From Halococcus agarilyticus (GTDB lineage Archaea; Halobacteriota; Halobacteria; Halobacteriales; Halococcaceae), in assembly GCF_000334895.1 (NCBI RefSeq), contig NZ_BAFM01000007.1, positions 62,001-126,000 of the forward strand: a stretch of 64,000 nucleotides of DNA. Reading direction: 5' to 3'. Below the pieces are notes generated by a model that worked only from the letters and a program-made list of their open reading frames with translations, made no database searches and was not told the origin of the DNA. Made by a program: the position numbers and the translations under genes. Shown here one piece after another: positions 21,701 through 23,712 of the stretch (its first letter is position 1; the number at the start of each line of letters is the position of its first letter).

Positions 21701-21723
21701 TGGGCCCTGTCGGATTCGAACCA
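21701..21723 (-). repeat. second copy of the 3' end of the CAT-anticodon tRNA
   Basis: 23 bases identical to 21814-21836, which is the T-loop, acceptor and discriminator part of the adjacent tRNA, in the same orientation and 90 bases beyond the tRNA's 3' end. A GC-rich hairpin (8-bp stem 21787-21794/21799-21806) lies between. No other tRNA parts are present. Confidence 0.85.
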
Positions 21724-21813: not shown

Positions 21814-21950
21814 TGGGCCCTGTCGGATTCGAACCAACGACCACTCGGTGTCCCATGCTATCCGACGAGTCGCATCGGAGCGGAGCTGTGTCCGATCCGA
21901 TTTCGGATACCAGTATGAGCCGAGCGCTCTTACCACTGAGCTAAGGGCCC
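21814..21950 (-). tRNA. tRNA-Met(CAT), intron-containing
   Basis: Reads GGGCCCU acceptor, UA, D-stem GCUC/GAGC, anticodon stem CUCGG/CCGAG with anticodon CAT at 21917-21915, T-arm GUUGG-UUCGAAU-CCGAC, AGGGCCC, discriminator A. An intron interrupts after position 37, as in haloarchaeal elongator tRNA-Met. The stem lacks the three G-C pairs of an initiator. A tRNA-Ile2 (C34 modified) cannot be excluded from sequence. CCA is not encoded. It may be co-transcribed with tRNA-Asn. Confidence 0.88.
21850..21913 (-). other. tRNA intron (about 64 nt)
   Basis: Sequence between anticodon-loop position 37 and position 38 of the CAT tRNA. Removing it leaves a 73-nt tRNA with all stems paired. Exact splice points could shift by a base or two and depend on the bulge-helix-bulge. 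Confidence 0.7.
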
Positions 21951-22059
21951 GTGTGAGCCGAACGTTTCGCCTTCCGACTCTTGAACGTATCGGGTTCGAT
22001 GATTCGGCTTCGCCTTCCGAAAGGACGCCGGCATCAGAAACCAGAGACTTCTGATTGGC

Positions 22060-22192
22060 CGTGAAACCCGCAGGATTTCACGCCGTCGTCAGATTCCGGC
22101 GGGATCTGACGGGCCGTGAATTTTCGAAGAAAATTCACGCCGTCGTGAAAACTCGATGAGTTTTCACGGGCCGTCAGACCGAAGGTCTGACG
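22060..22192. repeat. tandem array of five perfect hairpins, ~28-nt period
   Basis: H1 22060-22082, H2 22087-22111, H3 22115-22139, H4 22144-22168, H5 22172-22192. H2-H4 have 11-bp stems (one G-T pair in H2), H5 9 bp, H1 7 bp; loops of H2-H5 are 3 nt (GGC, GAA, GAT, GAA). Spacers alternate CCGT, GGC, CCGT, GGC. H1, H3 and H4 begin CGTGAA; H2 and H5 begin CGTCAGA. H5 overlaps the last two bases of tRNA-Asn. Non-coding, between the two tRNAs. Confidence 0.9.
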
Positions 22193-22263
22193 CCGCCGCC
22201 AGGGCTCGAACCTGGGACAACCTGGGTAACAACCAGGTGCTCTACCAACTGAGCTACGGCGGC
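22191..22263 (-). tRNA. tRNA-Asn(GTT)
   Basis: 73 nt: acceptor GCCGCCG/CGGCGGC, D-stem GCUC/GAGC, anticodon stem CCUGG/CCAGG with loop UUGUUAC (anticodon GTT), T-arm CCAGG-UUCGAGC-CCUGG, discriminator G as expected for Asn. Transcribed toward the hairpin array and the CAT tRNA; divergent from cca. Confidence 0.95.
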
Positions 22264-22347: not shown

Positions 22348-23712
22348 ATGACCGACGACGCCCTCGATACGGTTCTCGCACGGGTCAGAGAGCGCGTCAC
22401 TCCCGACGCCGAGAAACGCGCCCGTCTCGACGAGGCCGTCGCTCGGCTCACCGACGCCACCGAGCGCGCGGTCGCGGACCGCCCAGTCGACGCCGACGTG
22501 GTCCACGTCGGCTCCACCGCTCGCGGCACGTGGCTGCCCGGCGACCGCGACATCGACCTGTTCGTCCGGTTCCCGTCCGAGCTTCCCCGAGAGGACCTCG
22601 AACGCCACGGCCTCGCGGTCGGGCACGAAGTACTCCCCGACGGCCGCGAGGAGTACGCCGAACATCCCTACGTCACCGGCCATTTCGACGGGTTCGCGGT
22701 CGATCTCGTCCCCTGCTTTCGGGTCGAGCGCGCGGCAGACGTCCGGTCGGCGGTCGATCGCACGCCCTTCCACACCAAGTATCTCGATTCCCGACTCGGT
22801 TCGGCGCTCGCCGCCGACGTCAGACTCGCGAAGGCGTTCCTCGCGGCGATCGGCGTCTACGGCAGCGACCTCCGCACCCGCGGGTTCTCGGGCTACCTCG
22901 TTGAACTCCTCACGCTCGAACACGGCGGGTTCCGCTCGCTGATCGAGACGGCCGCCGACTGGCACCCGCCGGTGCGGTTCGATCCGGAAGGGCACGGCGA
23001 CGCTGGCGGTGAGAGCTTCGACGACCCGCTCGTGGTGGTCGATCCCACCGATCCGGGACGCAACGTCGCGGCGGTGCTCTCGACAACCAATCTCGCGAGG
23101 TTCCAGCACTACGCCCGTGATCTCCTCGCCGATCCGCGCGAGTCGGCGTTCGTTCCCGATTCGCCCGCAGCGATCGCCGCCAACGAGATGCGGACCGAGA
23201 TCGACCGCCGCAGCACGGTCCCGGTCGCCGTGCGGTTCGACGCGCCGGATCTCGTCGCCGACCAGCTCTACCCCCAGCTCGAACGCTCCCGACGGGGAGT
23301 GGTCGACGCCCTCGACCGTCGCGGGTTCGACCCCCTCCGCTCGGCCGCGTTCGCCGACGATTCTGCTGTGTTGTTCGTCGAACTCGGGGTCGCCGAACGA
23401 CCGGCGATCGAGCGCCACGAGGGGCCCCCGGTGAGCGCGCGCGAGCACGCGACCGCTTTCCACGAAAAGTACGCCGATACGGACTGCTACGGCCCATTCA
23501 TCGAGGAGGGACGGTACGTCGTCGAGCGCGAACGAACGTTCCCCAGCCCCCGCGCGTTCCTCGAAAGCGACGCGCTGTTCGACGTGGCGCTCGGCGCGGA
23601 CGTCGAACGCGCGCTCGCGGCCGACTACACGGTGCTCGTGGGCGACGAGACGGCCGCCCTCGCCGACGAGTTCGGGGCCGAGCTGTCGCGGTACTTCGCG
23701 CCGAAGCCCTGA
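22348..23712 (+). CDS. cca: CCA-adding enzyme, archaeal class I
   Basis: Adds CCA to tRNA 3' ends; none of the tRNA genes here encode CCA. 454 residues. The nucleotidyltransferase motif runs from GSTARGTWLPGD to RDIDLFV (55-73) with catalytic Asp68 and Asp70 and a third carboxylate in FAVDLVPCF. HTKYLDSRL and the following helical region belong to the archaeal CCA-specific core, and the C-terminal tail and body domains are complete. It sits divergently from tRNA-Asn, a suggestive functional neighbour. Confidence 0.93.
   Translation: MTDDALDTVLARVRERVTPDAEKRARLDEAVARLTDATERAVADRPVDADVVHVGSTARGTWLPGDRDIDLFVRFPSELPREDLERHGLAVGHEVLPDGREEYAEHPYVTGHFDGFAVDLVPCFRVERAADVRSAVDRTPFHTKYLDSRLGSALAADVRLAKAFLAAIGVYGSDLRTRGFSGYLVELLTLEHGGFRSLIETAADWHPPVRFDPEGHGDAGGESFDDPLVVVDPTDPGRNVAAVLSTTNLARFQHYARDLLADPRESAFVPDSPAAIAANEMRTEIDRRSTVPVAVRFDAPDLVADQLYPQLERSRRGVVDALDRRGFDPLRSAAFADDSAVLFVELGVAERPAIERHEGPPVSAREHATAFHEKYADTDCYGPFIEEGRYVVERERTFPSPRAFLESDALFDVALGADVERALAADYTVLVGDETAALADEFGAELSRYFAPKP

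Follow-up and report, generated by a model that had tools for sequence, protein, structure and literature searches.

A dense row of short hairpins adjoins the 3' end of a tRNA-Asn gene in Halococcus agarilyticus, which raises the question whether it serves the tRNA transcript or arrived there as mobile DNA. We analyzed the locus within a stretch of 64 kb, here called the window, whose positions are used throughout. The original prediction had placed the array correctly and had described five perfect hairpins, four of them with 3-base loops. Count, loops and perfection had to be revised: the row spans 22033-22192 and comprises six hairpins, each with a central loop of three bases, and perfect stems are limited to h3, h4 and h5. 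The first hairpin (22033-22055, ATCAGAAACC.AGA.GACTTCTGAT) has 10-base arms with two mismatched pairs and the loop AGA, h1 (22060-22082, CGTGAAACCC.GCA.GGATTTCACG) contains one C.A mismatch and h2 (22087-22111) one T.G pair. As predicted, the spacers GGC and CCGT alternate between the hairpins, and h5 (22172-22192) overlaps the tRNA-Asn gene (GTT anticodon; 22191-22263, minus strand; Rfam RF00005, 71 bits) at bases 22191-22192 of its 3' end.

Read alongside its relatives, the array resolves into three tandem units on the plus strand (22033-22085, 22086-22142 and 22143-22195). Unit 1 consists of the first hairpin and h1, separated by the spacer TGGCC and followed by the end tetramer GCCG, and is matched by our covariance model R1 at 22032-22082 (E 5e-7). 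Unit 2 starts with TC and the hairpin at 22087-22111, continues with the spacer GGC(C) and a hairpin with an 11-bp perfect stem (22115-22139) and closes with GCCG; it matches R1 with E 1.3e-15 and has an orthologue in the closest relative, G002. Unit 3 repeats this order with TC, a hairpin of 11 perfect base pairs (22144-22168), the spacer GGC(C) and a hairpin of nine (22172-22192), and here the closing GCCG is the 3' end of the tRNA-Asn gene itself (R1 match E 4e-12). The model was built from nine unit pairs, those of the window included, and its E-values are rough. We consider it likely that the array represents three tandem copies of a transposase-free, miniature mobile two-hairpin unit of about 55 bases that spreads by insertion and keeps its arms complementary.

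A chance origin had been judged very unlikely, and indeed, when the whole 64-kb window was shuffled ten times with its dinucleotides preserved, no run of three or more hairpins arose, while the same rule finds five here. An assembly artefact might be suspected, since the genome is a draft of 58 contigs. However, the independent assembly of G002 carries an orthologous array, and units of this kind are also present in named plasmids with complete sequences. Together with the shuffles, these findings refute chance or misassembly, to which we assign a negligible probability. A CRISPR array was also rejected, in agreement with the original prediction, because the hairpins vary and the spacers are constant, the reverse of a constant repeat with unique spacers. 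An Rfam search over the window returned no curated family above threshold except two tRNAs.

The same hairpin pattern was recovered elsewhere in the genome and in relatives. The H. agarilyticus genome holds 25 model matches at E <= 1, which fall into about a dozen separate loci outside the array; within the 64-kb window there is no match beyond the array. At E <= 1e-6 the unit model matches 52 of 147 Halobacteriales genomes; for the 124 genomes that belong to the phylum but not to this order, the count, made from the genome identifiers among the matches listed, is zero. The model search is the sole source of these copy numbers, and several of the genomes compared are draft or metagenome assemblies. 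A 58-bp subfamily occupies 90 sites in 55 plasmid records; among the matches listed, the plasmids named are haloarchaeal (Natrinema, Haloferax, Natronomonas, Haloterrigena and others), and nearly all of these matches have no annotated gene beneath them. Plasmid pHME132 of Haloferax mediterranei, a cultivable species, has this 58-bp unit at four sites. An exact-pattern scan of genome contigs with one stem returned only the metagenome assemblies SW_9_67_24 and QS_9_67_15, and a phage collection gave no haloarchaeal match.

Comparison of the copies revealed a common grammar. Units are 51-61 bp long and consist of two short hairpins with 3-base loops, a spacer of 3-7 bases and short conserved ends, the general form being TC, a 10-3-10 hairpin, a 5-base spacer, a second 10-3-10 hairpin and a tetramer. 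With the hairpins in parentheses, the same plan is seen at one other locus as GTC(GTCAGAACTC.ttc.GAGTTCTGAC)TGCTA(ACCAGAAGTC.ttt.GACTTCTGGT)GATG and at a further one as CGTT(CACGAGAGC.gaa.GCTCTCGTG)CAGCACA(TCAGAACGC.ttc.GCGTTCTGA)GGACG. Among the copies listed, the hairpin feet are TC or CGTT on one side and GATG, GACG, GCCG or GGACG on the other. Units can also be nested: loci L061 and L060 hold one unit within the spacer of another, and the outer unit is found solitary in L065. The composite four-hairpin form of L061 measures about 120 bp and has the ends GTNGTTCGA and TCGAACGAC.

The stems change in pairs. In an alignment of the 58-bp subfamily (19 copies), 98.8% of cells are paired, double changes occur in 11 of 17 pairs, and 25 double-change cells stand against three one-sided standard pairs; no shuffled or slid alignment of these copies came near this level. 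Between H. agarilyticus and G002, the orthologues of unit 2 differ at five bases, namely two compensated pairs (four bases) and one loop base. Two inverted copies in the H. agarilyticus genome (L078 and L079), about 3 kb apart and 96% identical over 443 bp, differ among the 300 aligned bases listed by one SNP and one inverted loop, TTC versus GAA, and the same loop flip is seen in L041, L042 and L043. In a comparison of G.U with A.C mismatches, meant as a test for selection on RNA, few mismatches were present in the stems. Intermediates are scarce and loops are flipped, and both are probably better explained by copying of one arm from the other in a hairpin or cruciform than by slow compensation at the RNA level.

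Filled and empty sites document insertion at single-base resolution. The tnpA gene of IS200/IS605 elements carries 54 extra bases, forming two hairpins in frame, in Haloferax larsenii and two Natrinema plasmids, whereas the copies of Halobaculum, Halorientalis and Halomicrobium lack exactly these 54 bases. In an IS-type transposase gene 56 bp were inserted at two sites, GACCCGCCGA^CGGCGG and CCCGCGT^CGGCGTT, with a shift of the reading frame; the empty copies are intact. A gene of H. agarilyticus that we assigned by eye from its sequence to the M20-type peptidases contains 51 extra bases in frame, which are missing in six aligned relatives of the same genus, and an equal length deficit was seen in other relatives. 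At the filled sites the target bases are intact and no duplication is needed beyond a possible 2-bp CG at the junction. Some of the insertions in transposase genes may go back to one old event that was inherited by many copies. Joined flanks at 11 non-redundant sites fold better than neighboring stretches, a weakly significant preference for palindromes (p = 0.04); the lower value obtained with 30 partly redundant sites (p = 9e-7) has to be discounted for redundancy. The spacers of the relatives are too divergent to reconstruct an exact empty site for the array itself.

Some further copies lie close to IS200/IS605 sequences. One IS200/IS605 element of Haloferax larsenii ends in a CCTCGGGG...CCCCGAGG palindrome whose loop is occupied by a two-hairpin unit (L063, 3996-4060); the palindrome is present in intact form at about 6080. 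The tnpB genes of L117, L118 and L119 seem to have received hairpin units at two positions close to their 3' ends (about 1440-1640). In TnpB systems, the tnpB 3' end overlaps the guide-RNA region.

The position of the array would also be compatible with a functional RNA element of a tRNA-Asn/tRNA-Met transcript, which guides or delays 3' processing, stabilizes the transcript or insulates it. Read along the minus strand, tRNA-Asn (22263-22191) is followed by the array and then by the CAT tRNA (21950-21814); the two tRNA genes, which share their orientation, flank the array, and one of them adjoins it. The CAT tRNA, which the original prediction had already placed near the array, was supported by Rfam (RF00005, 21814-21950, 58 bits); it contains an intron, for which reason it was missed by ARAGORN, and is of the elongator tRNA-Met type. 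Folding of the array stretch together with tRNA-Asn gave a very stable RNA structure (-121.4 kcal/mol versus -81.6 +/- 4.4 for shuffled sequences, z = -9), and in another family (G080, locus L108) a related two-hairpin unit adjoins a duplicated tRNA-Asn 3' end. Against a processing role, the tRNA-Asn site is occupied by the array in only two of ten genomes of the genus, H. agarilyticus and its closest relative G002, and the orthologous spacer lacks it in the other eight. Furthermore, only two of 44 other loci with related hairpins are near any tRNA, and members of the family are also inserted in protein genes. The earlier suggestion that the array shapes processing of the two tRNAs thus finds no support, and we regard such an element as quite improbable. 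Since only two of the ten genomes carry it at tRNA-Asn, the array was inserted recently and is not a conserved tRNA-processing signal; it is a young stack of miniature mobile elements, with two hairpins each, arranged in tandem.

The hairpins stay separate in the centroid fold of array and tRNA-Asn, and the 7-bp acceptor stem of tRNA-Asn is intact in both the minimum-energy and the centroid fold. In these predicted structures the hairpins fold alone and leave the tRNA undisturbed, and this self-contained folding may be the reason why the insertion was tolerated, probably as a near-neutral change. The array in G002 adjoins a duplicated tRNA-Asn 3'-end fragment as well, and tRNA 3' ends are possibly a recurrent neighborhood for the units.

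The second suggestion of the original prediction, a REP-like mobile hairpin family, proved right in kind, since dispersed copies, exact filled and empty sites and a shared grammar were found. Like REP sequences, the units are multicopy, dispersed palindromes in ordered clusters. They did not qualify as REP elements proper, because the test for a RAYT failed. REP sequences are known as short palindromes in ordered clusters, with foot tetramers, extragenic dispersal and occasional in-frame insertion (PMC3733652, PMC3116915, PMC6006769). The units show these traits, and several of them are located in tnpA, in tnpB or at IS200/IS605 ends, which would suit canonical REP/BIME/REPIN elements whose mobilizer is a resident Y1 transposase of the RAYT or IS200/IS605 type. 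However, the Y1_Tnp profile (PF01797) has no match in the H. agarilyticus genome, nor in G017, G021, G096 and G110, all of them unit-rich, near-complete genomes. Over all 147 genomes, Y1 was found in 27 of 52 with units and in 50 of 95 without (Fisher p = 1). A Y1 transposase as resident mobilizer was therefore rejected. Moreover, the units have no GTAG foot, and where REP sequences form a single long inverted pair, each unit has two hairpins that are independent of each other. This reading we likewise hold to be unlikely. The resemblance to bacterial REP/BIME/REPIN elements extends to short extragenic palindromes, clustered mosaics, a mobile doublet, compensatory changes and tetramer feet (PMC3116915, PMC3733652, PMC6006769), whereas the units differ from them by their 3-base loops, by the independence of the two hairpins, by the lack of an associated RAYT and by the lack of a GTAG or GTGG tag among the copies listed.

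Among described elements, the transposase-free small mobile repeats of Haloquadratum appear to be the closest, a match by description rather than by sequence. The SMR-A elements of Haloquadratum walsbyi (HqIRS42, 43 and 55) are transposase-free and multicopy, cause no target duplication (Dyall-Smith et al., 2011, PMC3119063), are about 110 bp long and have prominent inverted repeats at their termini, and are said to insert within near-terminal palindromes of IS605-type elements (PMC3119063). Their mobilization was called enigmatic and no mobilizer was reported (PMC3119063). Our units are likewise haloarchaeal, multicopy and too short to encode a transposase, and they insert as exact blocks of 51-56 bp without target duplication. 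One clear case of a unit in the loop of an IS605-type end palindrome is that of L063, and further copies lie in IS605 ends. The four-hairpin composite of L061 comes near SMR-A in size. Unlike SMR-A, the basic unit is only 51-61 bp long, is built from two hairpins with 3-base loops, forms tandem arrays, enters genes in frame and is spread order-wide. No such hairpin array was found in the Haloquadratum plasmid PL100.

Other known repeats are more distant. CGTC-tagged palindromic repeats, described from five bacterial phyla, have 4-5-base loops and a CCA tail (PMC3733652); they share with our units the lack of a dedicated transposase, and several units start with CGTC, but the units have 3-base loops and no CCA tail was seen. 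Rickettsia palindromic elements are also small palindromic units that can lie in frame within protein genes (see also PMC3733652), but they belong to another taxon, and each unit here is a hairpin pair with its own spacer and tetramer. MITEs are characterized by target duplication and by terminal inverted repeats that they have in common with a resident transposon; the unit insertions show no target duplication beyond the possible 2 bp. Searches of open-licence papers turned up no description of the unit, with SMRs and REPINs being nearest. The array is a new variant among REP, REPIN and small-mobile-repeat elements.

How such units move can be outlined as follows. Insertion at a new site, often inside an existing palindrome, would leave the target bases complete and would probably proceed through a single-stranded DNA intermediate and an enzyme acting in trans. 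Entry into the spacer at the tRNA-Asn 3' end would have happened in the ancestor of H. agarilyticus and its closest relative, and multiplication there may have proceeded in tandem or by repeated insertion side by side. Arm complementarity is probably maintained because one arm serves as the template for the other while the DNA is single-stranded or cruciform, and the same copying would flip the loops. A broader version of this scheme is tentative: two-hairpin mobile DNAs of this kind might make up one haloarchaeal family across the whole order, spreading without Y1 transposase via a host activity recognizing DNA hairpins, with the same chemistry rewriting arms and flipping loops. In that case the evolution of the hairpins as perfect palindromes would take place in the DNA itself, and the enigmatic mobilization of small mobile repeats would be accounted for.

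This class of tiny mobile elements seems to be unannotated in haloarchaea. Its grammar, filled and empty sites, covariation and loop flips are now described to the base for a widespread group, and the movement of transposase-free repeats becomes a testable question in cultivable species such as Haloferax. The case also cautions that striking hairpin arrays beside tRNAs are not necessarily RNA-processing signals.

The surroundings of the two tRNA genes show further features. About 110 bp downstream of the CAT tRNA gene, 23 bases of its 3' end (21814-21836) recur unchanged at 21701-21723, as after integration of an element at a tRNA. By eye, no AT-rich TATA-like box was seen upstream of the CAT tRNA gene at 21950-22030; several relatives of the same genus have ATAAAA about 29 bases upstream of theirs. 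Judged from these upstream sequences, expression of the CAT tRNA may require transcription that continues from tRNA-Asn through the array. In two families a short insert of about 120-165 bp follows tRNA-Asn and is flanked by a duplicated tRNA-Asn 3' end; the hairpin unit comes immediately after this duplicate (L039 of G002, about 1990-2200; L108 of G080, about 1337-1500). Divergent from tRNA-Asn, at 22348-23712, lies a gene for an archaeal CCA tRNA nucleotidyltransferase (TIGR03671, E 6.5e-144).
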